Part shown: positions 33,480-60,936 of the stretch, one piece after another
Numbering within the stretch: the stretch's first letter is position 1
Layout of the letters: each line of letters opens with the position of its first letter
NCBI RefSeq assembly: GCF_041146795.1
Contig: NC_135186.1
Location: 37,368,354 to 37,432,353 of the forward strand
From: Maylandia zebra
Lineage: Eukaryota; Chordata; Actinopteri; Cichliformes; Cichlidae
Reading direction: 5' to 3'
DNA length: 64,000 nt
Program-made: the position numbers and the translations under genes
Notes under the pieces: generated by a model
What the model was told of the DNA's origin: nothing
The model's input: the letters and a program-made list of their open reading frames with translations, nothing else
Databases searched by the model: none

Positions 33480-34850
33480 ATTCACTGCAATATTTGCTTT
33501 TCTTTAGATTTAAAGTTAAGTTGTCAGCATCAGAAGTACTGATGGTGTATTTATGTCACACAGGTTTTTCCATCACAGCTGCAGGGAGACAGAAAGCATT
33601 TTGAGGTTTATTAAAATGATCAGATGATGATTTGAAGCATGAATGACTCACTTTCAGGTCAACATTTCAGTTCCTTTAAATTTTATTGAATTTATTTTCC
33701 TGTTTATTGTGATATGAAATCATATTTATCAACAGAATCCAGCAGTGATGTCATCGAGGCTTGACATCCTGCTGGAAGTGACATCAGCAGTGAGGCTGTG
33801 ACATCATCATGTCAGACGTGTCAGGACACGAAGGAGCAGTTTGTGTCTCTGACACAAACAAACCCTCTCTGTGAGTTACATCTTTGGTCGTTGACATAAT
33901 CTCGTCCTGTAAAGAATCAAAACAAAGAAATAAAATCAGAGGTCTGTGCTGTAAATGTTTTCTTCTTCTCTAAAGTAAAAAGAACAAACACAGTTCTTAT
34001 AAAGACCTAAGATCACATGACTTCAGTCAATAAAAACCAAACACATTTCATCAACAGGCCCACTTTCAGTTTGTACCATTAAAGTTTATCTCCATACAAT
34101 CTTGACCTCCTCCAGAGTTGTCAGGTTCTCCATTACCCCAGTTTGTGAAGTCAAACTGGGAACCATCACTCCACTTCCACACAGTTTCCTGGAAGAATAA
34201 AGTTCAGTTTGTTCTGATGTACTTTGATGCATCTATGCTGAGAGTGCAGACATGAGACCTCTTACACCACTCGAACACAACGAAGGTTCATTTTGTTTGT
34301 GCAGGTAAAAAATGAAAAGAAAAGTCAAGTCAACAGCAACATCTGTCTCCAGGAACAAAGTCCTGATTAATCAGTCTGTCACATGTTGACCTTTGAATCA
34401 AACTGATGAATATGAAGAGAAACATATGAAATATCAGAAACAGCTGCAGCTCATCCTCTTTATCTGTGAAACACTTACATTCTCTCTGTCGTTGCCTCCA
34501 ACCCAAGCTGTCAGATACGACCCTGCTGCTGTGCGAGTGAGCTCTCTGATGAAGGTGTACTCAGCTGTGCTGTGGAATGAGGCCAGATTTCCACCGAGTG
34601 TCTGACAGGAACTCTGAGGAGGAAGATGAGGTGCACAGAAGATGAAAAGTGTGAGAATGCATTTAAAATCAGTCAAAGACAGAAAGTCTTTATATCATCA
34701 GTGATGCAGCGACAGCTGCTGTTATTTCCTGATGTACCTCAGCATCAGTCCAGGTCTTCATGCTGCTGTTAAAGATGAAACAGCGACCTCCAAACCGAGT
34801 CCAACCAGCAGGGCAGGAAGGAGCTGCAGCATGAACGCAAAGTTAAAAGG
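33480..34850 (-). repeat. CTLD segment of the tandem lectin duplication, copy A
   Basis: Nearly identical, introns included, to about 47880-49250, and its left part to 63485-64000. Divergence rises at both ends. Confidence 0.85.
33525..33578 (-). pseudogene. SUEL exon relic downstream of lectin A
   Basis: On the minus strand a CTGCAG acceptor leads into CTGTGATGGAAAAACCTGTG, which matches the third exon of SUEL domain 1 in lectins A and B. It shifts frame and hits TAA after nine codons. Equivalent relics occur at 47900-47952 and 63502-63554. Confidence 0.6.
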
Positions 34851-37800
34851 TCAATAATCAAATTAAAAATTCCTCAAAAGAAAAAATAACTTCTGAAACT
34901 TCACCATGAACTTCAGCTTAGAAAAGATTTAATAAGAAACACACATTTATTTATGTGTTAATTTTGTAACTGACTCACTGCAGCAGTGAATCTTTAGTGT
35001 GACACTGAGTGTAATTAATGTTTAATAATATTTTACTTTAGTTAATGTTCTAATTTTACAGCAGATGCCTGCACAGCGGGACAGAGAGATTCACATGTTT
35101 GTGTGATTTTGCATGTTTCACTTTTAACTTCTACTGATCACATCTGGGTCTTTAAAGCTGCAGAGCGTGAATGTTGACCCCCATGATCCTCCGGTGGGTC
35201 CTGTTTAAGGTCGAGGTTTAAGTCTAACAGTGAGTGTGCTTTTACCATCAGGGCCTTTGACTGTGGAATGACCTGCCTGAGGAGAACAGGCTCCAACAAT
35301 CACAAACCTCCTTTAAATTACTTAAAGCACATTTTAGAGAAAACAGGCTCCTAGCACAACCTGGGTCTCGAATGAAGTCGAGAGGAGACCGGGCACTTGC
35401 AACCGTGGCACCCAGACTCTGGAATAACCTCCCTGTTCATGTTCGTACTGCCGAGTCTATCACGTCTTAAAACTTATCTTTTTACATTGGCTTTTGGTTC
35501 TAACCAGTTGGCTGTTCTAGCTTGTTGTGTTGTTACCTATTGTTTGTTGTCCTGTTTTATTGTGTCTTTTAATTGTCTCCTGCTTTTACTGACTGTGAAA
35601 CACTATTGTTGTTTGAATATGTGCTGTATAAATAAAATTTGATTTGATTTGAATAGTGCTTCAGCAACTACAGACACATTTAGAGATAAACAGTATCAGT
35701 GATGAATTCCAGTCTGGATTTAAACCGCGTCACAGCACCCAAACTGCCCTACTAGGAGTTTTCAACGACCTCCTTCTAATCGCTGACTCTGGGCGCTCTG
35801 CGGTCTTACTTCTATTAGATCTGACGTCACCTTTGACATGGTCGATCATGATATTCTTTTGGCAAGGTTAGAACATGTAGTTGGCCTTACAGGAAATGTT
35901 CTTTCATGGTTTAAATCATATCTTTCAGAGAAGTCCTTCTCTGTCACAGTGGGTAAACATTCCTCTTCTTCTGCCCCTGTTCGCTGTGGTGTGCCCCAGG
36001 GCTCGGTGCTGGGTCCTGTGTTGTTCTCTCTGTACATGCTGCCCCTGGGCTCCATTTTTGAAAAACATAATGTCTCTTTTCATTGCTGTGCTGATGATAT
36101 TCAAATCTACCTCCACTTGACTGGGGATGTTTCATCTTCACTACATCCTCTGTGGGGATGTCAAAGACTGGTTACTATGTGACTCTCTTACCTTAAATGA
36201 AAAGAAGACGGAATTATTGTTTTTGATAGAAATATGCTTCTGGGACAACTGACTGGCACACTGGGGCCTGTTGCTAACCGCCTCACTGATGCTGTTAGGA
36301 ATCTTGGAGTTTTCATGGATACTTCCTTCAAACTGGATCAACAGGTGTCCACTGTGTTAAAAAGTCGCTTCCATCAACTGCGCCAAATTTCTAAAGCTAA
36401 ACATATTTTTACTGCAGGAAACGTACAAAGAAAGAGAAGCTGTGTTCTCACCACACTGAAGGTTTGCCTGAGATCCTTCACATGTTACACTTTGGCCTGA
36501 AACAGACACAGATCCCATAGAAACTGTAATCATTCATGTACAGACTGGGTTCATCAGTCATTTCTAATCACAGGTTTAACAGAGTCGTTACGTGGGAAGC
36601 AGTCGTAGGTGGTCTCCAGGTATTTGCAGACTCCAGGATCATAAGTAATGTTTGACTTTATGTCACACTCGGTTTTTCCATCACAGCTGCAGGGAGACAG
36701 AAACAGCTGGTTTTCAGCTCAAAGATATGAAACAAGTTACTTTCAGGTGATCATTTACTTCCTGTTAGTTTGAGTAAAGCTGTTCAACAGGTTTTAGTTT
36801 GTTTCTTCTTTTGAATCAAAGGCTCACTTCTACCATCCCACAGTGCTCACCTGTTCCTCACGTTGTTCACAGCGTCACCGTGAGAGCAGATTACTTCACC
36901 TCCACATCTGTACTCAGCTGACCTCACAATGATCATTCCACCCACTGTTATACAGACACAGTATGAGAGAAAAGGAACAACTCAACACAACATGCAATAA
37001 TCCAGGTTTCAGGCTTCAGTTTCAGACTCAGATGCTGCAGATCCATAAATAATGAGGATTGTACCTCTGTACACCACCACAGTGGATATTACATTAACTC
37101 TGATCAAGGAGGAAACTTTAAGTCAGTGTTTTTGTTTCTAATCTACATCAAATGTTTCTGAACTTTTATACACAGTCCAACATCCTCAGAGCTTTTTTAA
37201 AGAATAAATGCACTGTTGGTTTGTTGATCAGGAAAATACAATTTAAACTGAAAATAAGCAGCTGTGCATAAAAAGGCTGTAAACTATAAACAGTTCATCC
37301 AATACTTGTTAAGTTTGTTGAATTTAGCCTGAGAGTCTGAATTTGATCTGCAGTGAATTCTTGGACACTATTTTCCATCTTACCACAGCTCAGGCGAGGA
37401 ACACTGAGGCCGTTAGAGGTGACCACTCTCCCTGTGGATATGGGGGTCACAGGAGGAGAAACTTGAGCTCTGATAAAGCCTGAAATAAAAAATAAATTGT
37501 ACATTTCTGATAAATTAATGGGGAATGTGTTGATCATTTTCTTGCTGAAGGTGAAGCTACAGCTGGTCCCTCATCTTACTTTAGTTTTCCCTGATGGATG
37601 TGAAACACGGTTAGTGTCAGCGAAGCTTACAGTAACCTCTGTCTGCTGAAGCTGCTGGCTGATTTAGCCCCAGGGTGGACAACAAAGATCACAGTTTGTA
37701 AAGAGTGCAGAGACATAATATCTATCATGTTATTATCTATCTATATTCAACATTGCATCAATACATTTGTCAAAAAATGTCTCTCTGAGCAAAATGGGTT

Positions 37801-39180
37801 CAAAAACATAAACAGCTGTGGGATCCTGTTAGTCCGTGATTTGAACCGAGGGAACAAATCGTGGCAGGATCAGCCTGATGTTATTTGTATCCTGCTGTAA
37901 CTTTACTGTATAAAGAGCAAACATCTCCAACATGTCAGGAGCAGTTAGTCATTACAACAAGTGTTTGAACTAAAGATCAAGAATGTGGGATCCTGTTTGT
38001 CCGTGATTTGAACAGCCCAGCGCTGCTCCCGACGCAGGGAAACCAGTTCTGCAGGGAGACCGACCTCAGCACCTGTGCAGGTGAAGCCAAAGGGCAGATT
38101 TGCTTCACCATATTTTCTCGTCTTTGGCTCAGAATGAAGTTGGTTTGGAAACTTATTCAGCGACGCTTCATCTCCTGCTTTGCGTTTCTGTGGCCGCCCC
38201 GTGCTAGCAGTGGTTTTGTCCCCCCCCCCTTTTCATACCGCGCCCCCCCTGCAATGGCTCTGCGCCCCCCTAGGGGGCGGACCCCACACTTTGAGAAGGT
38301 CTGCTTTAAATCAAAATTGATTTAAAGGATTGCAATCCAAAGCCTCTATCCCTGATTTCCTCACATGTCAACAAGGAGCCCCACAACATCCAGAACCCCC
38401 CCCCCCCCCCCCCCCACCCCCACCCCCACCCGCCCAGCAGCCACCAGACAGGTTTCATTTCATTTTCACTGGGAACGGAAATAAGATTTTAAAAAGGTGT
38501 GTGTGAAGGATAGAGTTTAGATTTTAGATCACACAAATACAATATTTAGTAGTTACAGACAGAAGAAGAAGAGGTGAGCTCTAATAATGAGAAAGTTCAC
38601 AGAAAGGCTCTTTGTGACCAGAATATAAGAAGCAGTAAAACAGCATTTACCTGAAGTGATGAGTGAACAGGTTGCTGCCAGCACTGAAAGAGACAGAAAG
38701 AAAGCTCAGTGTCAGACTGTGTGTTTGATATCAAGTTGAATTCACCTCAAAACATGAAACAGAAATGAAAAGCAAACAGGAGAAAGCTGCTGCTTTCATT
38801 CACACCTGGATTCTTTGGAAACTCTTTCTAAACAGCAGATTTCAATGACACATTTATTCTCTTCATCTTTCCAACTTTTGTCAATAAACTTATTTGTGTT
38901 GACAGTTTGACTTCAACTCTTCAAAGTAAATGATCAGCCATGAATTGCTCTCAGGACTCTGTGAAGCCTAACTGTCCTGCTGAGGTGATGCAAACATGTA
39001 TTTAGGATGTTAGATGAACTGATCCAATAAAGCAGAAAGAAAAGCATGTCACAGTACAGCACAGTGGAAAGCTAGAAAAGGATTAGACTGAACATGTGCA
39101 GCTGATTTCATGTATAAATAAAGGATGATCAGTGTGTTGTACTCACACAGTGTGCTGCTGAGTCCGGAGCAGAGCATCAT
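33821..39180 (-). CDS. Predicted chimeric lectin A: signal peptide, degenerate SUEL domain, C-type lectin domain
   Basis: Exons: 39180-39147, 38683-38651, 37479-37384, 36944-36851, 36686-36592, 36496-36452, then 34823-34738, 34613-34479, 34188-34077 and 33906-33821. All phases match and the joined frame is 271 codons plus stop. Residues 1-22 form a signal peptide. Residues 23-117 are a degenerate SUEL domain (no YGR; YDPGVCKYLETTYDC). A 45-nt exon that normally starts a second SUEL domain ([12 protein letters not shown]) follows, then a CTLD (133-271): [56 protein letters not shown] loop, DCMEIN and [10 protein letters not shown]. Fish CTLDs of this type resemble ladderlectin/type II antifreeze relatives. 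L2 fragments occupy the junction intron (35230-36420). That both halves are one transcript is inferred from phase and from the absence of a separate signal exon before the CTLD; otherwise the CTLD is its own gene. Confidence 0.65.
35230..35650 (+). mobile_element. L2-like LINE 3' end
   Basis: Contains the C-terminal reading GTRLWNNLP-like region (35405-35440), ends in a TGCTGTATAAATAAAATTTG tail with a short ATTTG repeat. 5' truncated. It sits in the lectin A junction intron, antisense to it. Confidence 0.6.
35656..36420 (+). mobile_element. L2/Maui-like LINE reverse-transcriptase fragment, broken
   Basis: Frames at 35656-35871, 35838-36182 and 36234-36420 carry RT segments: FQSGFKPRHSTQTAL, VDHDILLARLEHVVGL, CGVPQGSVLGPVLFSLYMLP and the YADD box altered to CADD. 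Frameshifts separate them, so it is inactive. Confidence 0.75.
38396..38432. repeat. Poly-C tract
   Basis: C run grading into CCCCA units, in lectin A intron 2. A C-rich inverted GGGGCGGA/CCGCCCC-type repeat debris at 38218-38285 precedes it. Confidence 0.9.
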
Positions 39181-39300
39181 GTTAGGAGATCTGGATTACA
39201 GTGAAGAGCTGATGGAGGATCAAACACAGAGCTGCTGGATTCACTCTGTTTCAGTAACACCTGTGATGTACATGCAAAGCACAGCCAATGGAAAAGCAGA
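38640..39300 (-). repeat. Signal-exon/promoter segment of the lectin duplication, copy A
   Basis: Almost base-for-base the same as 60395-61055, including introns and the promoter; I count only a few differences by eye. Confidence 0.9.
39285..39289 (-). promoter_or_regulatory. CCAAT box upstream of lectin A
   Basis: AGCCAATGGAAAA with a preceding ATGCAAAGC octamer-like element, 105 bases before the start codon, conserved in lectin B and loosely in gene 1. Confidence 0.4.
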
Positions 39301-39319
39301 GTATCCTCCTTCTCACGTG

Positions 39320-39660
39320 CAGGATGTTGGATGTTTGGAATGGAAAAAGTATGAGAAAAAGAAAAAACCAGGATGTGAATAAACAACATGTAAAACAGGG
39401 TGCAGCAGGAACACAGCAGGAATATATTTGTATGGAAAATTTTCATATTTACATGGAACATCTCCACATGTCTCTCTGGTCAGAGACCACAAACGAGACA
39501 GTGTTTGTGATGCTGAGTCAACAGTATTATATTGTAAGTGTTTAAAGAGAGGTTTCCATTGACTGTGACTGTGTGAAGAACTGTTGAAAGTTCCTGAACA
39601 ACACAACATGCCATTGTATGGCAGCTGCACCATTGTACACTATCTCTACTTTTAACTTTC
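39320..39660. other. Upstream flank of lectin A
   Basis: No gene. The stretch from about 39400 is related to 61575-61720 and to 43260-43400, so it belongs to the duplicated lectin unit. Confidence 0.5.
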
Positions 39661-39664
39661 CTTT

Positions 39665-40335
39665 TTGCTAAAGCATATAGTTGGGACCAAACACTCCAGG
39701 AACAACAAGTAGGCCTGCAGAGCGAGAGCGAAGTGCTCTAATAGGGTGATATGGTACTACAAGGTCATTAAGATAAGATGGGGCCTGATTATTTAAGACC
39801 TTGTATGTGAGGAGCAGGATTTTACATTCAATTCTGGATTTAACAGGGAGCCAATGAAGGGAAGCCAATACAGGAGAAATACAGCATTTTGGATTAACTG
39901 AAGGCTTTTCAGTTAATCTGCTTCGTGCATGGAGAGGGAGACATTGTCTAAGAGTTCTTCTGTCTCCTACTACCTGAACTGGGTCGAGGAACATCCTGGG
40001 ACAGAGCTTATCCACCCGCTTCCTCTCAGCTGTAGATAAGCTGCTGTTCCCACAAACAACAACATAGAAGATGGCCGACAGCACCAGAGAGTCTAAAAAG
40101 GTCTTCAGGAGTTCCCCCTGCACTCCAAAAGATCTCAGTCTCCTCAGCAGGTAGAGTCTGTTCTGACTCCTGACTCAGTGTTGTCTTAAAGACATTCCTG
40201 CAATTTAATTGGCTACAAAGAGCTAGGTTGATCTGCATACCCAAGAAGTATGCGATGCCTTGTAACGATACCTTGAAGAAGCATTTAAAATATAAACAGA
40301 ACTGGTCCCAGCGTGGAACCCTGAGGAACTCCATT
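39665..40335 (-). mobile_element. LINE fragments (L2-like 3' region joined to another non-LTR piece)
   Basis: Minus-strand frames at 40123-39668 and 40334-40026 include [34 protein letters not shown] and [13 protein letters not shown], typical of the C-terminal part of fish L2 elements, and an SAIFYVVVCGNSS block from a LINE C-terminus. Defective. Confidence 0.65.
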
Positions 40336-40649
40336 ATTAACCTGAGAATGTGAAGAAGGCAAATTGGAGTCTGTTAGACAGACATCACTGAAGTCACTGC
40401 GGTGCAGAAACTTTAATACCTACTGCATGCTCTGATCTCTGTAGTAAAAGTTCATGGTCATCAGTATTGGTATCAGTATTTTTTCACTCTAATAGTTAAG
40501 ATTTTATTTGTGAAGAAATTCATGAATTCGTTAATAGCTGAGATTAAAGGAATGTTTGGAGCTCTGTTTGTCATCCTGGCTACAGACTCAAGTTTGTTCT
40601 TATTTTCTTAAAAATCAGTGATGAATAGTAAAATGGGGTAACGACGTTA

Positions 40650-42495
40650 CGTGGGTAACGACAGCGAGACCTGGAGGGGCGTGATTGGGAGGAACGGCCT
40701 CCCTGATCTGAACCCGAGCGGTGCTTTGTTATTGGACTTCTGTGCTAATCACAGTTTGGCCATAACGAACACCCTGTTCGAACATAAGAGTGTCCATAAG
40801 TGCACGTGGCACCAGGACGCTCTGGGCCGTAGGTCGATGATCGATTTTGTAATCGTATCACCAGACCTGCGACCATATGTTCTGGACACTCGGGTAAAGA
40901 GAGGGGCTGAGCTGTCAACTGATCACCACCTGGTGGTGAGTTGGATCAGGTGGCGGGGGAGGACGCTGGACAGACCTGGTGCACCTAAACGCGTAGTGAG
41001 GGTGTGCTGGGAACGTCTAGCAGAGGCCCCAGTCCGCGAGATCTTCAACGCACACCTCCGGCAGAGCTTCAACAGCATTCCGAGGGAGACTGGGGACATT
41101 GAGTCCGAATGGACCATGTTCAGCGTCTCCATTGCCGAAGCTGCTGCATTGAGCTGCGGCCGCAAGGTGGTTGGTGCCTGCCGTGGTGGTAATCCCCGAA
41201 CCAAATGGTGGACACCAGAGGTGAAGGGAGCCACTAGGCTGAAGAAGGAGTCCTATCGGGCTTGGTTAGCCTGTGGGACTCCGGAGGCAGCTGACAGGTA
41301 TCGACAGGCCAAGCGGAATGCGGCTCGGGCAGTGGCTGAAGCAAAAACTCGGGTGTGGGAGGAGTTCGGAGAGGCCATGGAAAAAGACTTTCGGACTGCC
41401 TCGAAGAGATTCTGGCAAACCGTCAGACGTCTCAGGAGGGGAAAGCGGTGCTCTACCTGCACTGTGTATAGTGCTGGCGGAGCGCTGCTGACGTCGACTG
41501 AGAAAATTTTCAGGCGGTGGAAGGAATACTTCGAGGACCTCCTTAATCCCACTGACACGTCTTCCGAGGAGGAAGCAGAGTCTGGGGATGAGGGGAATGA
41601 CCCGCCAATTTCCGGGGGCGAGGTCACTGAGGCAGTTAAACAACTCCTTGGTGGCAGAGCCCCTGGTGTTGATGAGGTCCGCCCCGAGTTCCTGAAGGCT
41701 CTGGACGTTGTAGGGCTGTCCTGGTTGACACGCCTCTGCAATGTTGCGTGGAGATCAGGGGCAGTACCTGTGGACTGGCAGACCGGGGTGGTGGTCCCCA
41801 TCTTTAAGAAGGGGGACCGGAGGGTGTGTTCCAACTACAGGGGGATCACACTCCTCAGCCTCCCTGGGAAAGTCTATGCCAGGGTGCTGGAAAGGAGAGT
41901 TCGTCCGTTAGTCGAACCTCGGATGCAGGAGGAACAATGCGGTTTTCGTCCTGGTCGCGGAACACTGGACCAGCTCTTTATCCTCTCCAGGATACTTGAG
42001 GGTGCATGGGAGTTTGCCCAACCAGTCTACATGTGTATTGTGGACTTGGAGAAGGCATTCGACCGTGTCCCTCGGGGTGTCCTGTGGGAGGTGTTGCGGG
42101 AATATGGGGTGTCTGGCCCATTGCTACGGGCCATTCGATCCCTATACAACCGTTGCAAGAGCTTGGTTCGCATTGCCGGCAATAAGTCGGACTCGTTCCC
42201 GGTGGGTGATGGGCTCCGCCAGGGCTGCCCTTTGTCTCCGGTTCTGTTCATAATTTTTATGGACAGAATTTCTAGGCGCAGCCAAGTGGTGGAGGGCTTT
42301 CGCTTTGGTGGCCTCAGAATCTCATCTCTGATTTTTGCAGATGATGTGGTTCTGTTGGCTTCCTGCCATAAAAGACATCTACAGGAAGTGGTATCTGAAA
42401 AGGGCTGGGAAAATCATCAAAGACCCCAGTCACCCATCACATGGACTCTTCACCCTCCTGCCCTCTGGGAAGCGCTACAGGAGCCTCCGGACTAA
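40650..42495 (+). mobile_element. RTE/Rex3-type LINE, 5' truncated, 614-codon open frame
   Basis: A single frame covers the end of the endonuclease ([10 protein letters not shown] near the start), a linker, and the reverse transcriptase: [57 protein letters not shown] and [10 protein letters not shown] (the catalytic F-A-D-D). The N-terminal endonuclease is missing. The frame leaves RT homology just after FADD (about 42370), where sequence of another LINE 3' end begins. The family name rests on recall of these motifs. Confidence 0.8.
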
Positions 42496-42965
42496 GACCA
42501 CCAGGTACCGGAACAGCTTCTTCCCCACAGCTGTCAGACTCCTGAACTCTGCCTCCTGACATCTGACCCACGTTAAACTCATGGACTGAACATACACACA
42601 CCCACAACCACCTACACACCTTTCTCACTCACTATGTGATAACAGACCTCTCTGCATTGAATCATATCTGTTATTAACCTCTGTCTCTCTTCCACAGCAT
42701 GTCTTTATCCTGTCTTCCTTCTCTCACCCCAACCGGTCGCAGCAGATGGCCCCGCCTCTCCCTGAGCCTGGCTCTGCCAGAGGTTTCTTCCTGTTAAAAT
42801 GGAGTTTTTCCTTCCCACTGTCGCCAATGTGCTTGCTCATAGGGGGTCATATGATTCTTGGGATTTTCTCTTTTTACCATAGGATCTACTTTACAATATA
42901 AATTGCCTTGAGACGACTGCTGTTGTGATTTGGCGCTGTATAAATAAAATGTATTCAAACTCAAC
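42375..42965 (+). mobile_element. LINE 3' end with conserved teleost retroposon tail
   Basis: A short frame with [20 protein letters not shown] and FFPTAVRLLN resembles the extreme C-terminus of non-LTR ORF2 proteins. The following 3' region contains CCTCCCTGAGCCTGG, GAGGTTTCTTCCTGTTAAAA and TTGGCGCTGTATAAATAAAA, a tail I recognise from many fish LINE/SINE copies; relatives lie at 52300-52475 and, reversed, 62045-62350. Confidence 0.65.
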
Positions 42966-42984
42966 TGAATTGAAAGCTGAAGGC

Positions 42985-43105
42985 TCTGCTTCCCATTGTA
43001 TGGAGCAATCACATGTAAACCAGCAGTCTGAGAGCGAAGTGCTCTATTTGTCGTACGGCACTGTAAGGTCATTAGGATAAGATGGGGCCAGATTATTCAG
43101 GACCC
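42985..43105 (-). mobile_element. Small L2 LINE fragment
   Basis: Matches the segment around 39720-39790 (AGAGCGAAGTGCTCTA, AAGGTCATTAGGATAAGATG). Too short to say more. Confidence 0.5.
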
Positions 43106-43227
43106 ACAAAGTCACTTGGAGGGATTATTTTTCCTGGTTAAATGATGATCTTCTAAATGAGTGCATTTCCTGTGCAGCTTTTTCCAAGACTCCTTTTTTT
43201 GTCGTGCAGTGTTTGAATAAATCCTGT

Positions 43228-43420: not shown

Positions 43421-43424
43421 GAGA

Positions 43425-44009: not shown

Positions 44010-44070
<61 letters not shown>

Positions 44071-44190: not shown

Positions 44191-44200
44191 CAAAAACATA

Positions 44201-45553: not shown

Positions 45554-45559
45554 TAGTTA

Positions 45560-45968: not shown

Positions 45969-45971
45969 CAT

Positions 45972-47879: not shown

Positions 47880-49250
47880 GCATCAGGTGATGAGATCCCA
47901 GGATCAGAAGTACTGATGGTGTATTTATGTCACACAGGTTTTTCCATCACAGCTGCAGGGAGACAGAAAGCATTTTGAGGTTTATTAAAATGATCAGATG
48001 ATGATTTGAAGCATGAATGACTCACTTTCAGGTCAACATTTCAGTTCCTTTAAATTTATTGAATTTATTTTCCTGTTTATTGTGATATGAAATCATATTT
48101 ATCAACAGAATCCAGCAGTGATGTCATCGAGGCTTGACATCCTGCTGGAAGTGACATCAGCAGTGAGGCTGTGACATCATCATGTCAGACGTGTCAGGAC
48201 ATGAAGGAGCAGTTTGTGTCTCTGACACAAACAAACCCTCTCTGTGAGTTACATCTTTGGTCGTTGACATAATCTCGTCCTGTAAAGAATCAAAACAAAG
48301 AAATAAAATCAGAGGTCTGTGCTGTAAATGTTTTCTTCTTCTCTAATGTAAAAAGAACAAACACAGTTCTTATAAAGACCTAAGATCACATGACTTCAGT
48401 CAATATAAAAACCAAACACATTTCATCAACAGGCCCACTTTCAGTTTGTACCTCCATGGTTTATCTCCATACAATCTTCTCCTCCTCCATAGTTGTCAGG
48501 TTGTCCATTACCCCAGTTTGTGAAGTCAAACTGGGAACCATCACTCCACTTCCACACAGTTTCCTGGAAGAATAAAGTTCAGTTTGTTCTGATGTACTTT
48601 GATGCATCTATGCTGAGAGTGCAGACATGAGACCTCTTACACCACTCGAACACAACGAAGGTTCATTTTGTTTGTGCAGGTAAAAAATGAAAAGAAAAGT
48701 CAAGTCAACAGCAACATCTGTCTCCAGGAACAAAGTCCTGATTAATCAGTCTGTCACATGTTGACCTTTGAATCAAACTGATGAATATGAAGAGAAACAT
48801 ATGAAATATCAGAAACAGCTGCAGCTCATCCTCTTTATCTGTGAAACACTTACAGTCTCTCTGTCGTTGCCTCCAACCCAAGCTGTTCGATACGACCCTG
48901 CTGCTGTGCGAGTGAGCTCTCTGATGAAGGTGTACTCAGCTGTGCTGTGGAATGAGGCCAGATTTCCACCGAGTGTCTGACAGGAACTCTGAGGAGGAAG
49001 ATGAGGTGCACAGAAGATGAAAAGTGTGAGAATGCATTTAAAATCAGTCAAAGACAGAAAGTCTTTATGTCATCAGTGATGCAGCGACAGCTGCTGTTAT
49101 TTCCTGATGTACCTCAGCATCAGTCCAGGTCTTCAAGCTGCTGTTAACGATGAAACAGCGACCTCCAAACCAAGTCCAACCAGATGGGCAGGAAGCATCT
49201 TCAAAATGATTGCAAAGTTAAAAGGTCGGTGAACAGATTAATGGTTCCTC
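47880..49250 (-). repeat. CTLD segment of the tandem lectin duplication, copy B
   Basis: Matches 33480-34850 closely; its left part plus the LINE tail from 47711 also matches 63323-64000. Confidence 0.85.
47900..47952 (-). pseudogene. SUEL exon relic downstream of lectin B
   Basis: Same frame-shifted third exon of SUEL domain 1 as at 33525-33578, with the acceptor still present. Confidence 0.6.
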
Positions 49251-51549: not shown

Positions 51550-51617
<68 letters not shown>

Positions 51618-54600
51618 TCTTATATTTTGATTTGATCTGTATTATGGTTTTACTGGAAAGCACTTTGGTCTTTAAATGTGGTATACAAATAAATTTGATA
51701 TGTTATGATATGAATTGTTGACAATGTAACAATGAAAGACTATTCGCCTCACAAATATAAACCTTACGTCACTCTAATTCATTGCTCACCAGTCTAAACA
51801 AAACATTCTTCGAGATTCTGGTTTGACTTTCAGAGCTCTTAGTGGACGATCAGTGAGCCTTTACAGCCATCAGCAGGTCCCTGAGGTCATGTGATCAAGA
51901 GCTACTTATTGAACATGACAGGAGGTTGAAAACTAAAGGAGACCGAGTTTTGACCACAGTGGTTCCCAGACTCTGAAACTCTCTCCCTCTGAGCCTGAGA
52001 TCTCAGTCGTGTCTTTCAAGAACCAATAAAAACTCAGTATTTAGGCATGTGTTTGGATAACTTTTTTTTATGCTCTGTTATTTTTTGGTGAAGCACTTTT
52101 GATCTCTGTCTTGAAAGGTGTTTTATAAATAAACTTTTACTTACTTACTAAAGACGTTAGTAACAACAACTGAACAAAGTTTAAGCCACATGAATAATAA
52201 AATGTGGGATGAAGCTCAGTTCACATGAATTAGCCAATCCATGGTGCCCAGTCTTCCAAAAGTCCATACAGAGTCAGGCCTGTCATGTGTGAGAGCCTGG
52301 ACCCTCTTCACTTTGTGTATAGAGGTTTTCCATGTGACATCATCACAGGGAGTCATATGATTGTTGAGATTTTCTCTGTTTTGTTTCTATTATTCTAAGG
52401 TCTCTACTTTTTTTATACAAAGCAACTTGAGGCAATCTGTTATTTGGATTTGGTGCTGTATAAATAAAACTGAATTGCAGCACTTTTAAAACTCAGAGGA
52501 CTTTTCACACATCAAAGGAAAAACATCAGCTGGTGCAGTATTTTTTAAAGCAGGTCTAACACTGCAGCATTTAGGAGAAAACAGACTAATAGATTTTTAC
52601 ATTTTGTTTTGGAGTATCTATATATTGTGATCAGCATCACTGATTTCTTCATTAAATTACATTTTTCCATAATTAAGTTCTATAAAAATCACAGGATTCT
52701 GTTTTTTAAGACTTTCATAAACATCATTTCAATTTGTTCACTCAGGATCTGTAAAAATAATCTGACAAGATATTCATGTCAGATTATTGAGTCTTTTTCA
52801 GCAATGACCTTTTTATGAGCACAGGAATGAATGCAGTCTAAAGGTTTCAGGTTCTTACCCTGACAAGTGTAAAACACCTCCAGGTACTTGTAGGTGCCGC
52901 CACAGGGGTCTCCAAACACTGTGTTTGATGCTCCAACAGTACAGTTGTTCTGCCTGTTACACCTGTGAATGCAGGTCAAAGGTGAGTCAGCAGAGGACTG
53001 AAGTACGTCGTGTCATCTGAGAGAAGATGGAAAGAGAGTCAGCATCTGTACCTGTTAGTTACATATTCTGTACTATTGGGACTCGAACAGAGAACATTTT
53101 TGACGTGATCAGGATTTCCATCAGGGCACGTGGTGTTGTCACGGCGACCATAATTCGCCCAGGAGACGACTATAACCTGTCCTTCACCTGAGGAAGAGTT
53201 CATGAACTGTAACCATGTTTGTAGTTCTATCAAATGAATCCACTAAAGTTACAATAAATGAGAAAAATAAATCTGACCACACTGAAGGTTCGCCTGAGAT
53301 CCTTCACATGTTACACTGTGGACTGACAAAGAAACGCATCACATTAGAAACTGTAATGATTCATGTACAGATGTGACTGATTGTTAGCTGATAATCACAC
53401 ATGTAACAGACTCTCTGGGACGCAGGTGTAGGTGGTGTCCAGGTAGGTGCAGACGCCGGGATCAGAAGCACTGATGATGTTCATATTTATGTCACACACT
53501 TTTCTTCCATCACAGCTGCAGGGACACAGAAAGCAGCTCGTTTTCAGCTTTGTTAAAGTGTTTCAGAGCTGCTGCTGTTTTTATTCAAACAGTCATTTGT
53601 TATTGAAGATCTTAAACTACCTGTTCTTGATGTGCTGAGTGCCAGTCTGAGAGCAGGTTTGTGTATCTGCACATCTGTACACAGCTGACTGCACAGTGAT
53701 CACTCCCCTCTCTGTTATACACACACAGTATCAGAGAAAAGGAGAAACGACATGTAGTAAAGCAGGTTTGATGCACTTTGTGTTTTAGACCCAGCAGCTG
53801 CAGTCACATCCATAAATGTTAGTCCGACCTCTGTACACCACCACCGTGGATTTTACATCAAACCTTCTCTGATTGGTTGATTTATTTGTCATGTTAAGAG
53901 TTCCAGTGAACATCCAAGTACAAACTAAGATGTTTTATGTGCTAAAGTTTGAATGAACTGAGGGAACAGTGTCATGGTCCGGGTGAGTACAGCTGTTTTG
54001 CCTCTGAGCTGCTGTCTCCACCTTGGGGTGGAGTTACTGTACAGTGGCGTCTCCTCAGCTGTGGGCGACTGAGCTGTCAACATTTATGGACCAGCGCTCA
54101 CTTCACTCTTCGCCACAAGTTCTGCTTCACCTAGTCAGTGTTGCTTCAGACAATTAACAGGTGATTGTGCAGACTGAGACTCACTGTGTTTTGCCCATAG
54201 CTCACTATCTGGGCCCACGTCCTCATGTTAGGTTTGACAGCGTTTAGTATTGAAAGTTGAATGCTTGGACATTAATTGTGCTGCGGTTTTGGGAAGGCCT
54301 GGAAGGGGACTGGTGACGGCTCCCGGGCCGGGCAGATCCCCATGCACTAAATAGGAGTGAATCTGCCCCTCACCCGGACCTAGTACTCCCTTTGTGTCCG
54401 CTCTCCGCCCGGCAACATTCGGTGATGTTTTCCTGGACACTTTCCCCCAGGCCTAGGCACTAAATCCACTCTCCTCCCGTTACAGCGCACTGAGACTCCC
54501 GGTGCATTTCCAGCGTCTCCCCTCTGTGCTCTCGAACAGAGTGTTTTTGTTTTCATGAAGGTTTCAATTACACTGATTCATAGTAGCAGTCAAGCCCTTG

Positions 54601-57600
54601 TTCCATGTTAGGTTTATATGCTTAGAAGACAACGTTAGTTCATAGTACGTTGCAAATCATATCTTGACGTTTTTGCTTTTGAGAATAAATCCTTGTTCAT
54701 GTTTTCGTGGGCGACTCTCACGGTTACCATGCAGGTTACCATGGAAATAAAAACTGAATTTAAATGTGTGGCTGTACTTTTTTAACCAGTAACATCTGGA
54801 TTACTAGAGATTTGAATGGTAAAACTGATTTTCTGTGTATGCACTCAGACCTGTCTGAGGTCAAAGTTCAGCATCATGAAGATAAACTGCCATTTTTCTC
54901 CGCTGAGATAAGAAAGCAGGCGCAGCCCGAAGGAGGATCTAGATGCAGTTTTTACCCCGACAGAAAAACATGGCAGAAAAATGTTCTGTTTTCACAGTGA
55001 GTGGGAGGCAGAGCTCTTTGCTACAACGGCTAAAGAAACGTGTGTGTGTCTCACTTGTGGGACGACTGTGGCGACGAGAAAGTGACACAGTGGAGACACA
55101 CTTCAGTGCATGTCACACAAGCCTCCGTGCTAACTACCCACCTGACACACAAGCAGAAAAAGTCTGTGAGGCAGCTTTGAGCAAACGTGAGTTTTTTGAG
55201 GGGCAAGAAAACCAACCATGGAGCTGTTATTGAACAATCTGTAACCTCAACATATCAAAAACCAAGGAACCAACTGTGGACTTCAGAAAAGCTCCCAACA
55301 TGTCTGATGCCACAAACATTAAGGTGGAATATGTGCAACCCTATAAATATCTCGAGACGATTGTTGATTCAAGACTGTCTCCGTGTTTGTTTTACTTAAG
55401 GAAGCTGCCTTAGACTGTTTCTCTAACAGCATTAGAGAAACAGCTTTGTCCAGGCTGCTGCTGTTTATTGACTAATCTGTAGCAACTTGCACACGTTTAT
55501 CTCTTTTTAGGTATTAATGTTTTAAACACTTTATTATTTAGTAAATGTAATTTTATTAACTCTCAGCTGGCCTGGTAACGCTTTGGTGTCCCCCAGACAA
55601 GCTAAAGGAGCTGGCTGGGGAGGAGGAGGTCTGGGCTTCTCTGCTTAGGCTGCTGGTTTTTGGAGACTATTTTCCATCTTACCACAGCTCAGGCGTTGAA
55701 CACTGAGGCTGCTAAAGGTGATCACTCTTCCTCTGGATATGGCCGTCACAGCAGGAGGAACGGGAAGTTGTGCTCTGATAAAGCCTGAAATCAAAATATT
55801 AAAAAACGTAATATGAGGGTAAAGCAATGGAGGGAAATGTAAAAGTAACACAGAGAAGGCCGGCCGTCTTTTTTTCTCAAAAGGTTTGATGATGTAGTGA
55901 AAAGGCTATTTGGTTAGCTAACGTAGCTGTTTAACTGCTAACAGGCAGGAACACGCTGTGTGCATTTTTTTAAGTGATTAAAGTCAGTAAAAGATTACAG
56001 AAACACAGAAACTGCATTGAGCTGTAAGTTTATTCAAATATGGTCTCTAAGCAGACTCTTACTCTGGATGGCATTACCTCGGCCTCCAGTAACGCTGTGA
56101 GGAACCTTGGAGTCATTTTTGACCAGGACACGTCCTTCAACGCACATATTGTTAGGATGCCTGGGTCGTTGACCCGGGGTTTTTGAGTTTATTATATTAT
56201 TTAGAATTTCTAGTCTTTGGTTTCTTTGAGTTCTGTCTTATGGTTTATGTCTGTCTTCTCTAGTTGCTCTGTCTCCCCTGTCAGCTGTATCCCCTTGTCT
56301 AGTTGGCGTCTCTGTGTATCCTTAGCTGCTATATCCCCGTGTCCAGTGTGTCTGCCCTGGTCCCACGTCTCCGTTCCCTCTGTTGCAGTGCCTGCGAGTC
56401 TGTGTCTTTAGTTCAGACTGTGTCATGTTTCCTGTTTTATTTTGAAGGTCCTTGTCTGAGGTTAATGTATCTGGTTTCGCTTCCCCTGGTCTCGTTAGGC
56501 CTGATTTGCCCCAGCTGTGTTTCCCTCCTGTTACCCATTCCCTGATTGCTCCCTCTGTGTATTTAAGCCTTGTGTTTCTCTGTCTGTGTCGTGATCTACT
56601 GGTTTTCTAGCTGTGTGTTCTGGCAGTCCTCTGGTGTAAGTTTATTTTGATTTTTCCCCCCCGTTATGTTATATTTGAGTTTAACATTAAAGCTGTTTTG
56701 AGTTCACATCTGTCTCCGGAGTCTGCACCTTGGGTCCTATTCCTGTCTGCACACAGCCGCTCATAACACATATTAAACTAATATGTAAGACTGCTTTCTT
56801 CCATTTGTGCAACATCTCTAAAGTTAGAAATATCCTGTCTCAGAGTGACGCTGAAAAACTAGTTCATGCATTTATTACTTCCAGGCTGGACGACTGTAAT
56901 TCATTATTATCAGGATGTCCTAAAAACTCCCTGAAAAGCCTTCAGCTAATCCAAAATGCTGCAGCAAGAGTCCTGACAGGGACTAGAAAGAGAGAGCAGA
57001 TTTCTCCTGTTTTGGCTTCCTGTTAAATCCAGAATTCAAAATCCTGCTCCTCACATACAAGGTCTTAAATAATCAGGCCCCATCTTATCTTAATGACCTT
57101 GTAGTACCATATCACCCTATTAGAGCACTTCGCTCTCGCTCTGCAGGCCTACTTGTTGTTCCTAGAGTATTTAAAAGTAGAATGGGAGGCAGAGCCTTCA
57201 GTTTTCAGGCCCCTCTTCTGTGGAACCAGCTTCCAGTTTGGATTCAGGACACAGACACTATCTCTACTTTCAAGATCAGGCTTCAAACTTTCCTTTTTGC
57301 TAAAGCACATTCACTAAACATTGAACGTTGGATAGATGTTAAGATCTTCTCAATATTTGGTCTGCCGGTCCATCATCTGAACTTAATCTACAATTTGGAC
57401 GTCCAACCATGACCCAACCTGGACGTCAATATGACGTTTAACATTTGAACTTTGGACTTGGTAATTTTTTTGGACATCATGTGCACGTCTATGACAGGAG
57501 CAGGGAATTTACATGATTAAAAGATGTAATATATATATTTTTATTTACAAATAACATTGCTGTTATCAACATGATACACGTGAATATAAATATTTTTTTA

Positions 57601-60600
57601 TTTTAAACCTAAACTTTGAAATAAAAACATTCTTATGTGTTAACCTGTTGATTTATTGAGAACATGTGGGGTTTTTATTTGTTATGTTACATTTTCCAGT
57701 TTTCATTTAACTGGTTCTGATTTAGTGCTCACAATGCATTTGGTCCATTATAGTAGTGATGTGACGTTATGTATCGAGGCTTCGAAGCTTGTGTCGAGTA
57801 ATTGAGGGAGCGTTTCCACGATGCGCGTATCGAGGCTTGCTTCATTTATGGGAGGAGCTGAAAATGATGACGTCCGAAGCCTCGCTGCCCGGCTGTACCA
57901 CGTGACTGGTTCATGAAGTGGTTTGAACTTTGCTGCGAGCTATGACAGCGATATAAACCCTCAGACTTCATTCAAAATGTGGGTGTTTGATGGAGAGTTG
58001 CGGTTAGAGAGAGTTTGGAGACCGTTTGGAGGTTTATGAGAGTGAGGAGAGAAAGTCAGGAGAGAATGGAGCCAGCTAAGAAGAGGAGGATGTCCTCCCC
58101 TGTGTGGGAACATTTTGATCTTATTCCTCCCAACAAGGTATGTAAATTTCTACAGAAGATGTATTTTCATAATACTGATGGTGCAATAAAACCTATGTTA
58201 AGCTGTCTGTACTTTTGTACAAGGTGAAGTGTTTGCTATGTGCCAGGGAGCTGGGATATAACAACAACACCTCATCCATGCTTAGGCACTACAGAGCTTT
58301 GCATGAGAATAAGGGGAACACCGATTGTGGAGCAAGACCAGGTGAGCCATCAAATGCAATGATAATATAGCATGCAGTAATGTTACTAAATGATATAACA
58401 ATATTATACAACTGTTATAAGTTACGTGTGTGATATTTATATTTGTGCTTTGTTCTCCTGAGGAAAGACAATAAAGACAATCTCAAATAGATGAAGACCT
58501 GGTCAGCATGGTGATCGAGGACTCCCAGCCATTTAGCATTGTGGAGGACAAAGGATTCAAAAGATTTGTTAAATCATTAGATCCTAGCTATGTTCTCCCC
58601 ACTAAAAAGGTCATAAAAGCAGTGAAAATTTAGTTTTTACAGAATAAAATGTGAACAGGCAGGACTGAGGCTCAAAGCCTCAGTGTGTAGCTGTCCATAC
58701 CTCAACGTTACAAAAGCACAACCACTGTCCACACCCCAACCACACCTCACCTCACAGTAAATGATCATTTCCATTTCAAGCATTTCCAAATAATCATTTC
58801 CCATACTGCCACTATAAATATACACAGTATACTGCCATCACTACAATATACATGTTTTACACACTCCTTTTGTTGTTGACATTTACAGGCTGTGTGCAAA
58901 ATGCCACACTCTTCAAATTCATGCCAGCTATTATTTTTACGTCCAGTAGGTGTCCTGCTAGAGCAAATGAAGCTTCATGAAGCTTCGCGTTGGGGTGAAC
59001 CAATTGGATGAAAAGCTTCAGTGCTTCATGAAGCTTCATCTGCCCATCACTACATTATAGGTCATGGATTTGCTGTGTGGCAGGCAGCATGTTGGACCAA
59101 AAAGCAGGACTCATAAGCAAAAGGGTTAACTAAAAGAGGCAGCTTTACTCTAGTGGCAAATAACTCACTTCAAGTACAAACCTTAACTAGAAAAGAGAAA
59201 ACAAACCAGGAACTGTGACTAGAAAATGGCTGGAAACACAGAGGGTGTAAGACAACAACAGACAGAGGAAAACACAGGGCTTAAATACACCAGGGAGTAA
59301 CGAGGGAATGGAAAGAAGGAGGGAAGCACAGCCGGGACTAATCTGAAATAAAGAGATAAAGGAAGCAAAGCAGAACACACTGACATAGGACACAGACTGT
59401 CAAAGTAAAACAGGAAGTACGAGGCATCCACAAAGACGCAGACTAGACAGAGACGTGGAAACACGACAGACTCTGGAACAGAGACAACAAGAAACACAGA
59501 AACAAAAGTACCAAGATGTGGGACACAGGGAAGAGAGAAAAATAAGACTACACATACAACACACGGAGAACAGAATTAAACGTTCATCAAGAACATGGAG
59601 GAGGCACAGAAACAGAAGAGACACCTAGAAACCAGGAACTACAAATAATATACAAACAGGAAACCATAATTCAAAGAGTTTAACTTCAACCAAAAACACA
59701 AACACGGGGTCACCAGACTCAGTGCCGTGACAATATTAGACTCAGTGGGCTTCTGTCAAACTGTAAAAGAACCCACTTTAATCACACTCTAGATCTTGTG
59801 TTAACATATGGCAGAGAAACTGAACACGTAACAGAGTTTCCTGAAAACCCTCTGCTGTCTGATCATTTCCTGATAACATTTACATTTACACAGCAGTGGA
59901 GAGTAGACTTTATCACAGTAGATGTCTTTCTGAAAGCGCTGTAACTAAGTTTAAGAATATAATCCACCCACTGTTATCATCTCCAATGCCCTGTACCAAC
60001 ACAGAGCAGAGCAGCTATCTGAACGCTGCTCCAACAGAGGTCGATCATCTTGTTAATAATATTACGTCTTCACTGTGTACGACTGTAGACACTGTAGCAT
60101 CTCTCAAAAGAAAACCTCAAATCAGAGGAAGGACTTGACTCCTTGCTGTCGCTCAAACGTGCATCTAGATAACTCGCAAGCTGGAGAGGACATGGCTCCT
60201 CTGATATAAAAGATCACCAGCCTGGAAAAGTTGTTTTTGCTTTATAAAAACCTCTCTGGTGGAGAGAAATAAAAACTAGTGATATGTGAAGGTTGTTCAG
60301 TAGTTGCACAAGCAGAAGAAGAGCTCAGGTTCAATGATTAGCATGATGGAAGTATAAAGTTAACAGCAAGGCTGAGAAATATAAGAAGCAGTAAAACAGC
60401 ATTTACCTGAAGTGATGAGTGAACAGGTTGCTGCCAGCACTGAAAGAGACAGAAAGAAAGCTCAGTGTCAGACTGTGTGTTTGATATCAAGTTGAATTCA
60501 CCTCAAAACATGAAACAGAAATGAAAAGCAAACAGGAGAAAGCTGCTGCTTTCATTCACACCTGGATTCTTTGGAAACTCTTTCTAAACAGCAGATTTCA

Positions 60601-60936
60601 ATGACACATTTATTCTCTTCATCTTTCCAACTTTTGTCAATAAACTTATTTGTGTTGACAGTTTGACTTCAACTCTTCAAAGTAAATGATCAGCCATGAA
60701 TTGCTCTCAGGACTCTGTGAAGCCTAACTGTCCTGCTGAGGTGATGCAAACATGTATTTAGGATGTTAGATGAACTGATCCAATAAAGCAGAAAGAAAAG
60801 CATGTCACAGTACAGCACAGTGGAAAGCTAGAAAAGGATTAGACTGAACATGTGCAGCTAATTTCATGTATAAATAAAGGATGATCAGTGTGTTGTACTC
60901 ACACAGTGTGCTGCTGAGTCCGGAGCAGAGCATCAT
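48194..60936 (-). CDS. Predicted chimeric lectin B: signal peptide, two SUEL domains, C-type lectin domain
   Basis: Exons: 60936-60903, 60439-60407, 55784-55683, 53711-53621, 53515-53412, 53322-53278, 53187-53052, 52962-52859, then CTLD exons 49198-49113, 48988-48854, 48563-48452 and 48279-48194. Phases agree throughout and the joined frame has 355 codons. SUEL 1 (about 23-121) is degenerate. SUEL 2 (122-216) is canonical with [11 protein letters not shown] and [14 protein letters not shown]. The CTLD (217-355) has [45 protein letters not shown], a QPD loop ([12 protein letters not shown]) as in galactose-binding CTLDs, and [15 protein letters not shown]. Expected to be secreted. Intron 2 (55785-60406) is filled with a solo LTR, L2 pieces and a hAT element. 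As for lectin A, linkage of the SUEL and CTLD parts in one transcript is inferred, not shown. Confidence 0.62.
49440..49690 (-). other. Unassigned 82-codon frame, probably transposon debris
   Basis: Polar frame with no family recognised, located in the lectin B junction intron next to a Tc1-like fragment. Confidence 0.25.
49795..49965 (+). mobile_element. Tc1-like transposase C-terminal fragment
   Basis: The frame [20 protein letters not shown], then [13 protein letters not shown], resembles the C-terminal end of Tc1-family transposases of fish. No inverted repeats were found around it. Confidence 0.5.
50284..50308. repeat. Small inverted repeat
   Basis: TCATCCAAGC and GCTTGGATGA separated by five bases; a DNA hairpin of unknown meaning, possibly a fold-back transposon end. 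Confidence 0.5.
50438..51118. mobile_element. hAT-like MITE with 8-bp target duplication
   Basis: Perfect 8-base ends TAGGGCTG and CAGCCCTA, extended by imperfect ATAT/CGATAT subterminal repeats. Flanked by the direct repeat ATTCTGTC at 50430-50437 and 51119-51126. No transposase frame. Inserted in the lectin B junction intron. Confidence 0.85.
51551..51613 (+). repeat. (GT)n microsatellite
   Basis: Perfect GT tract. Confidence 0.95.
52300..52475 (+). mobile_element. Teleost LINE/SINE 3' tail fragment
   Basis: GGGAGTCATATGATTGTTGA and TTTGGTGCTGTATAAATAAA match the tail at 42835-42955. Confidence 0.55.
53971..54733 (+). mobile_element. Possible LTR-like insertion
   Basis: Begins TGTCATGGTCC, holds a GAATAAATCC hexamer late (54684 region) and could end in CA near 54733. 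It interrupts lectin B intron 3. No matching target duplication was seen, so the call is weak. Confidence 0.25.
55225..55400 (+). mobile_element. Non-LTR retrotransposon RT fragment
   Basis: Frames read ...[19 protein letters not shown] and [20 protein letters not shown], the region after the catalytic RT core in fish LINEs. Short and frameshifted. Confidence 0.55.
56045..57400 (+). mobile_element. L2-like LINE fragment split by a solo LTR
   Basis: 56045-56149 and 56769-57400 together carry the L2 C-terminal region ([19 protein letters not shown], then [72 protein letters not shown]). A stop and frameshift near 57024 disable it. Confidence 0.8.
56150..56768 (+). mobile_element. Solo LTR with 5-bp target duplication
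   Basis: Begins TGTTAGGATGCC and ends GCTCATAACA (TGTTA/TAACA inverted ends), with CATAT on both sides (56145-56149, 56769-56773). A TATA-like GTATTTAAGCC lies at about 56560 and an ATTAAA signal near 56688. No internal region, so it is a recombined solo LTR. Confidence 0.85.
57754..59052 (+). mobile_element. hAT transposon with BED-finger exon, internally deleted
   Basis: Ends TAGTGATG and CATCACTA are perfect inverse repeats, flanked by the identical 8-base CATTATAG at 57746-57753 and 59053-59060. Many GAAGCTT-type subterminal repeats lie near both ends. Encodes only the N-terminus of a ZBED-like transposase, so it is non-autonomous. Confidence 0.92.
58066..58620 (+). pseudogene. ZBED/hAT transposase N-terminal remnant
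   Basis: Exon 58066-58137 and a second from 58224 join in frame across GT-AG sites into a BED zinc finger: [12 protein letters not shown], then VKCLLC with the Cys pair and LRHYRALH with the His pair. After a second intron, [15 protein letters not shown] and [16 protein letters not shown] match the start of the hAT transposase body. The catalytic and dimerisation region is gone. Confidence 0.8.
59075..59732 (-). mobile_element. LTR-like element, antisense, related to the solo LTR
   Basis: On the minus strand it starts TGTCACGGCACTGAG and includes GGTGTATTTAAGCCCTGTGTT, similar to the TATA-like region of the solo LTR at 56560. The other end is not defined and no target duplication was found. 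Confidence 0.5.
59735..60150 (+). mobile_element. L2-like LINE endonuclease/linker fragment
   Basis: Frames read [31 protein letters not shown] (endonuclease SDH box) and the linker with [15 protein letters not shown]. Broken by stops. Confidence 0.65.

Follow-up and report, generated by a model that had tools for sequence, protein, structure and literature searches.

A family of putative SUEL-CTLD gene units in Maylandia zebra

A 64-kb stretch of the Maylandia zebra genome (C20:37368354-37432353, hereafter the window) carries gene units in which exons for SUEL domains, as known from fish rhamnose-binding lectins, are followed in frame by the four exons of a C-type lectin domain (CTLD), with a short exon that could end the SUEL part lying in the intron between the two. 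Analysis of 264 kb, comprising the window and flanks of 60 kb and 140 kb on its left and right (window coordinates -60000 to 204000), and searches of the 962-Mb genome revealed six units with this arrangement, and the reading we favour, with a probability of about one half, is that each unit is one secreted-lectin gene with alternative 3' ends, the short terminal exon being either used or skipped. In the closest copies, the exons of the second SUEL domain and of the CTLD differ at 4-14% of nonsynonymous sites and the adjacent introns at 0-0.6%. All units are paralogues with a common history. Gene models were predicted from genomic sequence by searching for exons and modelling splice sites, candidate signal peptides were assessed by visual inspection and hydrophobicity, and splice sites were scored with a consensus table.

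The repeated exon set consists of two signal exons, three exons of a first SUEL domain (SUEL1; S1a-c), three of a second (SUEL2; S2a-c) and four of the CTLD (Ca-d). On the minus strand of the window, unit A forms a ten-exon model from an ATG at 39180 to a stop at 33821 (271 amino acids, aa) and unit B a twelve-exon model from an ATG at 60936 to a stop at 48194 (355 aa), both without internal stops and with GT/AG boundaries throughout (Table 1). A preliminary description of this DNA had reported these exons, their order on one strand and open frames of 271 and 355 codons, and its coordinates and codon counts were reproduced exactly; the junctions that it proposed, from 36452 to 34823 and from 52859 to 49198, likewise turned out to be exactly a phase-1 donor and a phase-1 acceptor. 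Its picture of a two-fold family was too small. A genome-wide DNA search with the CTLD region of unit A yielded seven places, none of them outside this cluster (A, B, C, E, F, H and a relic in unit D; 7/7 candidates scored), and SUEL exons are followed by the CTLD in frame and without a stop in 6/6 units with a complete CTLD exon set (A, B, C, E, F, H), within 264 kb. Recurrence of this order in C, E, F and H, outside the window, goes beyond chance, although these copies are paralogues. In these six, no stop interrupts the reading frame between the first exon found and the end of the CTLD, and models from ATG to stop, each with signal-like first exons, were obtained only in three of the six (A, B and E).

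Among the units scanned with Pfam (A, B, C and E; cut-offs of 31.4 bits for SUEL and 22.6 bits for Lectin_C), both families scored over the cut-off in B (SUEL 88.6 bits, Lectin_C 79.7 bits), in C (Lectin_C 83.6 bits) and in E (SUEL 83.2 bits, Lectin_C 75.0 bits), and these two were the only families matching the four models at E-values up to 0.01, polycystin-type parts being absent. Of the two window units, B is the one that passes for SUEL. In A, the Lectin_C score of 77.8 bits passes and the SUEL score of 18.3 bits lies under the cut-off, and S2b, S2c and the terminal exon were not found by tblastn or by exact-word search. Unit A is a degraded example, with a divergent SUEL1 and a stub of SUEL2. 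Its frame is still open after the loss of S2b and S2c because both together run from phase 1 to phase 1, and, with these two and the terminal exon missing, the CTLD is its only in-frame spliced exit found.

A candidate terminal SUEL exon within the junction intron

The preliminary description had missed a candidate terminal exon in the junction intron of unit B. The sequence AG/ATCCTGAGTGA lies 110-179 nucleotides (nt) past S2c in B, C, D, E and F, and reads in phase as DPE-stop (NPE-stop in E). The 15-nt core of this exon is the longest word common to the first 300 nt of the junction introns of B, C and E, against a maximum of 9 nt in 500 shuffles. Variants exist in G, whose S2c is broken (DPK-stop), and in H, where the stop is lost (ACCCTAAAAGA); none was found in A. 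A short terminal exon kept after SUEL2 makes SUEL-only transcripts likely and means that fusion requires skipping of that exon; from at least some copies, SUEL-only transcripts are to be expected on the predicted exon structure. Unit D, which has intact SUEL exons without a full CTLD, can hardly use any ending but the terminal exon. In E, F and H, an in-frame stop occurs two to six codons beyond the S2c donor, with AATAAA 15 nt into the intron, and an unspliced ending is therefore also conceivable. That the SUEL part ends in phase 1 does not in itself point to fusion: in the stand-alone SUEL gene of the window (gene Z), the last SUEL exon likewise has a phase-1 donor, which is followed by a 26-nt terminal exon and, soon past the stop, by AATAAA.

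Constitutive fusion, with the DPE exon as a dead relic that is never used, would agree with the good scores of the S2c donor (67-86 in B, C, E, F and H), with the lost stop of H and with the loss of the whole exon in A. However, no other word at the start of the B, C and E introns is as well conserved as the exon core, which is also identical in D and F, beyond what a relic would lead one to expect, and D is without a full CTLD to splice to; we regard permanent fusion as quite improbable.

One gene or two in each unit

The absence of a signal exon before the CTLD, claimed earlier for A and B, was upheld in the sense that no such exon common to the units was found by junction scans and intron comparison. 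Up to 3,000 nt upstream of the CTLD was scanned for an ATG exon that is hydrophobic and ends in a phase-1 donor; this took in the complete junction introns of A (1,628 nt) and C (593 nt) and part of those of B, E, F and H. The scan gave none in A, C, E and F (4/6 units) and one candidate each in B and H, which differ from each other and are not common to the other units. As controls, exon a was recognised in two of the four stand-alone CTLD loci fetched, and signal exons were listed in both: 477 nt upstream at C3:18.41 Mb (L029), where the exon was also read directly, and a similar one at 1,495 nt at C3:18.20 Mb (L030). The scan is not specific, since other, probably false, candidates were also listed in the control loci. 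All-against-all comparison of the junction introns showed that A, B, E, F and H have about 50-60 nt in common beside the CTLD acceptor, where unit C has no 12-mer in common with them; a piece of 31-42 nt common to A, B, H and C lies further upstream in the junction intron and contains no open signal exon. The one stand-alone four-exon CTLD gene that was read through, at C3:18.41 Mb, has the CTLD exon phases of the units, preceded by a signal exon in phase 1, an arrangement that exon shuffling in this phase requires. The shuffling proposed in the preliminary description gains partial support from these phases and from the six in-frame units; phase 1 alone is weak evidence.

Several observations weigh against one gene with a choice of 3' ends. 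The core of the terminal exon is identical in B, C, D, E and F, and AATAAA or ATTAAA occurs soon past S2c or past the terminal exon in C, E, F and H; the conserved exon and these motifs would fit a SUEL gene that ends there, separate from the CTLD. The acceptor of the CTLD scores below that of the terminal exon in B (53 vs 74) and C (54 vs 74), with the order reversed in E and F (67 vs 58, the CTLD being stronger), and an unusual AAG acceptor precedes the CTLD in B and H. In the 264-kb exon search, C, F and H yielded no signal exons in place, and H no S1a. A looser scan without the donor rule listed, for every one of the six units, junction-region frames that start with ATG and are hydrophobic, and unit C contains an 11-codon frame, MKTFSVLLQIL, followed by A/GTGAAC, which is too short for the scan rules; the matching stretch of unit B, read by eye, hits a stop. 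Moreover, recurrence in six units does not amount to six independent events, because the units are paralogues with a common history.

Two neighbouring genes per unit, namely a SUEL-only lectin with DPE as its last exon and a CTLD gene with an unrecognised first exon, would account for the conservation of the terminal exon in five units, for the SUEL part that D keeps without a full CTLD, and for the hydrophobic first-exon candidates in B and H and the looser ones in all six; in addition, the donor-rule scan reached 3,000 nt at most and so covered only part of the intron in B, E, F and H. Yet the candidates of B and H are not shared with other units, the 593 nt of C hold none under the scan rules, the stand-alone gene at C3:18.41 Mb has its signal exon 477 nt upstream, and A has lost its SUEL ending. 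Considering both sides, separate genes appear unlikely. Joining of the signal exons straight to the CTLD would produce a small CTLD-only lectin from the same promoter, with the SUEL exons skipped; signal exon 2 ends and Ca starts in phase 1, and the join would be as in the C3:18.41 Mb gene. Such a product is very improbable, as six SUEL exons (four in A) would have to be skipped together and nothing else in the sequence favours it.

On the favoured reading of alternative 3' ends, the ancestor would have been a nine-exon fish rhamnose-binding lectin gene with two signal exons, three exons per SUEL domain and a single short exon at the end. Four CTLD exons, of the kind known from soluble fish C-type lectins, would have come to lie beside it. 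The phase-1 donor of the last SUEL exon would then reach the phase-1 acceptor that once followed the CTLD signal exon. Use of the terminal exon would give a conventional SUEL-only rhamnose-binding lectin (about 220 aa in B), and its skipping a SUEL-SUEL-CTLD protein of 355 aa in B and 344 aa in E, or of 271 aa with a SUEL2 stub in A. The units would have multiplied in tandem and by inversion, with SUEL2 and the CTLD, not SUEL1, diversifying between close copies. Some fusion transcript in some unit is probable; we infer the splicing choice, the secretion and a role of the products as soluble recognisers of foreign glycans.

Divergence of exons and introns between copies

The contrast between exons and introns is sharpest in the closest pairs. 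Units E and F differ in the CTLD at 22.0/313 nonsynonymous and 4.0/83 synonymous sites with introns at 0/462, and in S2 at 30.0/220 and 4.0/59 with introns at 1/180; for S2 of B and C the values are 18.0/221, 4.0/61 and 0/179. In the CTLD, 10/10 pairs of A, B, C, E and F showed nonsynonymous differences of 0.042-0.089 against intron differences of 0-0.0051 (each P <=4e-5), where the pairs are not independent and intron pairs more than 60 nt apart in length (e.g. Ca-Cb of E) were left out. Compared with a wider noncoding sample of about 30/3,843 differences (hand-worked), the E-F exons (61/683) gave P 9e-30 and the E-F synonymous sites (8/142) P 4e-5. SUEL1 provided an internal control: in the six pairs of A, D, E and F it has 1-3 nonsynonymous and 0 synonymous differences, with introns at 0-2/603.

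More distant pairs behave differently. For S2, the contrast is weaker in D-E, D-F and F-H (introns 4-8%, P 0.025 to 1e-3), marginal in D-H and E-H, and absent between B or C and D, E or F (introns about 23%) and between B or C and H (introns 30%). In the CTLD it is absent from the pairs with H, whose introns differ by 13-22%, and for SUEL1 of B or C, compared with each other or with the rest, the introns are as divergent as the exons or more so. The exon-intron contrast holds in close pairs only.

An external control was taken from a stand-alone SUEL array at C20:33171399-33205672 (about 33.17 Mb), from which eight loci were used. This array, about 4.2 Mb from the window, has 15 SUEL matches and several copies that are near-identical over 3 kb. 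In 21/21 pairs of seven loci (L002-L008), no difference occurs in the stretch that includes the SUEL C-terminal exon (0/147; exon alone 0/104), the YGR exon, with approximate boundaries, differs at 0-3/139, and the rest differs at 0-44 of 2,780-2,904. One pair (L003-L006) has 2/139 differences in the YGR exon vs 0/2,904 elsewhere, and the remaining locus (L001) compared with the other seven has 4/147 vs 511-579 of 2,344-2,427. If the array follows this trend at all, it does so only in trace form, far more weakly than SUEL2 and the CTLD in the units.

Because synonymous sites, too, have changed more than introns, amino acid selection cannot by itself explain the whole pattern, and short-patch exchange or intron homogenisation is likely to be involved beside selection. 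Positive selection is not claimed from the ratio of nonsynonymous to synonymous rates (dN/dS), as the two rates are not significantly different in most pairs. Codons hit more than once number 11 in E-F vs 4.9 expected (64/20,000 simulations as high) and 7 in B-C vs 2.1 (32/20,000); together with the synonymous excess, this suggests an exchange of exon patches or a homogenisation of introns in addition to selection. Four-gamete site pairs amount to 115/210 in the CTLD of six units, 51/105 in that of five units and 273/741 in S2, suggesting mosaic exchange, though recurrent change could mimic it. The loop of SUEL2 in unit F, which is unit-specific and the most divergent, was searched for in the 264 kb and 12 other loci without recovering another copy at up to 4 mismatches, and conversion from the examined copies is therefore not shown for that loop. 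Inspection of the mutation spectrum by eye displayed no clear base bias suggesting a targeted mutator. If E and F were two alleles misassembled as two genes, their exon variation would be allelic and no less odd.

That the CTLD exons differ, the introns hardly do so and the frames are intact in six units argues that the CTLD exons are translated. An array of young copies decaying into pseudogenes, whose junction yields nothing, would be consistent with the loss of most of the CTLD in D, the broken G, the loss of two SUEL2 exons in A, and the missing signal exons of C, F and H together with the missing S1a of H. Nevertheless, the six SUEL-CTLD frames have no stop or frameshift despite nonsynonymous divergence of up to 14% in the closest pairs, and the changes concentrate in two protein domains, against which decay is hardly probable at all.

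SUEL2 of B, C, D, E, F and H retains the YGR and DPC motifs, with EYL replacing KYL in H, and is variable between the two motifs; SUEL1 is without YGR and A is without a complete SUEL2. The CTLD motif is EPD in A, C and E, QPD in B, QPN in F and EPN in H, and the position preceding DC is occupied by Q in units A and E and by glutamate (E) in the other four. The varying CTLD positions are those that set calcium and sugar preference in mannose-binding protein, and the variation fits a predicted change of sugar preference between copies.

Organisation of the cluster and neighbouring features

The positions of all units are collected in Table 1. In the window itself, the signal exons of gene Z resemble those of A (2/37 mismatches) and B (6/40 mismatches); a match of gene Z to the DnaJ-like C11 Pfam model (34.7 bits, with no single stretch passing) was taken as spurious. 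Just past the 3' end of unit A, a relic of a third SUEL1 exon with its acceptor (ctccctgcag CTGTGATGGAAAAACC) lies at 33540-33591, from which it follows that one more SUEL copy once sat there.

Beyond the window, E and F are inverted near-copies, with aligned parts of the junction introns 98-99.9% identical and SUEL2 and CTLD exons about 9% different. Units B and H (48194-49198; 169223-170370) are 99% identical over 776 nt of the intron before the CTLD and have the AAG acceptor in both; this likeness, alongside a much larger difference in the later CTLD introns, hints at exchange in patches. An isolated copy of the second signal exon, with the sequence found in A, B, D and E, occurs at C20:37508748 (window coordinate 140395, plus strand), downstream of F on the same strand, and no first signal exon was found near it. 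A separate CTLD cluster at C21:20.62-20.82 Mb is 32-41% identical to the CTLD of unit A, and many of its members match the whole domain in one open frame, the introns within the domain being apparently absent.

Table 1. Gene units and related features in window coordinates.
Feature	Position	Strand	Remarks
Unit A, signal exon 1	39147..39180	-	phase-1 end
Unit A, signal exon 2	38651..38683	-	phase 1 to 1
Unit A, SUEL1	36592..37479 (S1a 37479-37384, S1b 36944-36851, S1c 36686-36592)	-	divergent SUEL, without YGR motif
Unit A, S2a (first SUEL2 exon)	36452..36496	-	
Unit A, CTLD	33821..34823 (Ca 34823-34738, Cb 34613-34479, Cc 34188-34077, Cd 33906-33821 with stop)	-	Lectin_C 77.8 bits
Unit B, signal exon 1	60903..60936	-	
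Unit B, signal exon 2	60407..60439	-	
Unit B, SUEL1	53412..55784 (S1a 55784-55683, S1b 53711-53621, S1c 53515-53412)	-	
Unit B, SUEL2	52859..53322 (S2a 53322-53278, S2b 53187-53052, S2c 52962-52859)	-	YGR and DPC motifs
Unit B, candidate SUEL terminal exon ATCCTGAGTGA	52748-52738	-	DPE-stop, phase-1 entry, inside SUEL-CTLD intron
Unit B, CTLD	48194..49198 (Ca 49198-49113 with AAG acceptor, Cb 48988-48854, Cc 48563-48452, Cd 48279-48194 with stop)	-	QPD motif
Stand-alone SUEL gene Z	27004..31324	-	four SUEL repeats, 411 aa, SUEL 236.8 bits in four stretches
Unit C	67559-63816	-	in window only last CTLD exon 63880-63816 and adjoining intron (63816..64000)
Unit D	83766 to 80353		intact SUEL part; CTLD relic around exon Cc 73452-73381, within 73154-73625
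Unit E	116540-105585	-	344 aa, signal exons in place
Unit F	131216-138165	+	
Unit G	about 165594-166257	+	SUEL piece broken in last SUEL exon
Unit H	178274 to about 169223		S1b match 5.5 kb upstream of S1c

Comparison with known lectins

The snakehead lectin (SHL) gene is described in PMC3269628 as having the signal in exons 1-2, two domains in exons 3-5 and 6-8, and the C-terminus in exon 9; with two signal exons, three exons per SUEL domain and a candidate short last exon placed like exon 9, the units resemble this arrangement. Their SUEL2, with its YGR and DPC motifs, is like that of fish two-domain rhamnose-binding lectins, and the nearest SUEL structures among the PDB matches listed were an L-rhamnose-binding lectin (5h4s, 1.6e-50), CSL3 (2zx0, 4.7e-47) and CSL2 (9vwi, 2.4e-42). 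Unlike SHL, CSL2 and CSL3, the units have four CTLD exons following in frame, a SUEL1 without YGR, and SUEL2 exons that diversify between close copies.

For the C-type part, the best single-CTLD structure among the PDB matches listed was a type II antifreeze protein (6jk4, 2.6e-26). The four CTLD exons, with phases as in the C3:18.41 Mb gene, liken the units to the soluble fish single-CTLD lectins of the antifreeze-protein-like, ladderlectin-like kind. Unlike these lectins, the CTLD of the units comes after SUEL exons and has no signal exon of its own found. An antifreeze-protein-like soluble group of CTLD proteins is described in PMC514892.

The pairing of SUEL and CTLD in one vertebrate protein is not new as such: PKD1L2 has a SUEL-type domain according to PMC2430599 and is listed in PMC514892 as a CTLD protein and member of group X. 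Unlike PKD1L2, a large polycystin membrane protein, the models here are small predicted secreted proteins of two SUEL domains and one CTLD with fish-lectin exon structure. The preliminary description knew of no described teleost lectin with this architecture. For secreted proteins, no description of a teleost SUEL-CTLD protein was found in searches of open-licence papers, which is weak evidence of novelty. Among the PDB matches listed (60 of 244, judged by best stretch and molecule name), no chain pairs both domain types.

Strong exon change beside quiet introns has precedents. In the snake three-finger toxins, the process termed ASSET, as presented in PMC2711939, changes exon segments radically while introns stay similar, and the young copies of habu small serum proteins are described in PMC6609765 as having fast coding and little intron change. 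The present case differs from these in the proteins concerned, and two of the three lectin domains of one gene model are affected. Conger eel galectins, congerin I and II, are fish mucus lectins reported to show accelerated amino acid change (PMC3269628); unlike the units, they have a galectin fold and no chimera.

Implications for lectin diversification in fish

Taken as a whole, the cluster may represent a dual-lectin family that makes SUEL-only and SUEL-CTLD proteins by choice of the 3' end, with both sugar-binding domains diversified together between tandem copies whose introns are nearly the same, and hence a germline repertoire of two-headed lectins; we put this combined picture forward tentatively, as somewhat short of an even chance. 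If transcripts confirm it, a rhamnose-binding lectin would have gained a calcium-type lectin head with its old ending retained, and a stage of exon capture would be open to study in living gene copies. Independent of fusion, the fast change of SUEL2 and the CTLD, set against a quiet SUEL1 and near-identical introns in the closest copies, is a natural experiment on the diversification of a vertebrate innate lectin repertoire.

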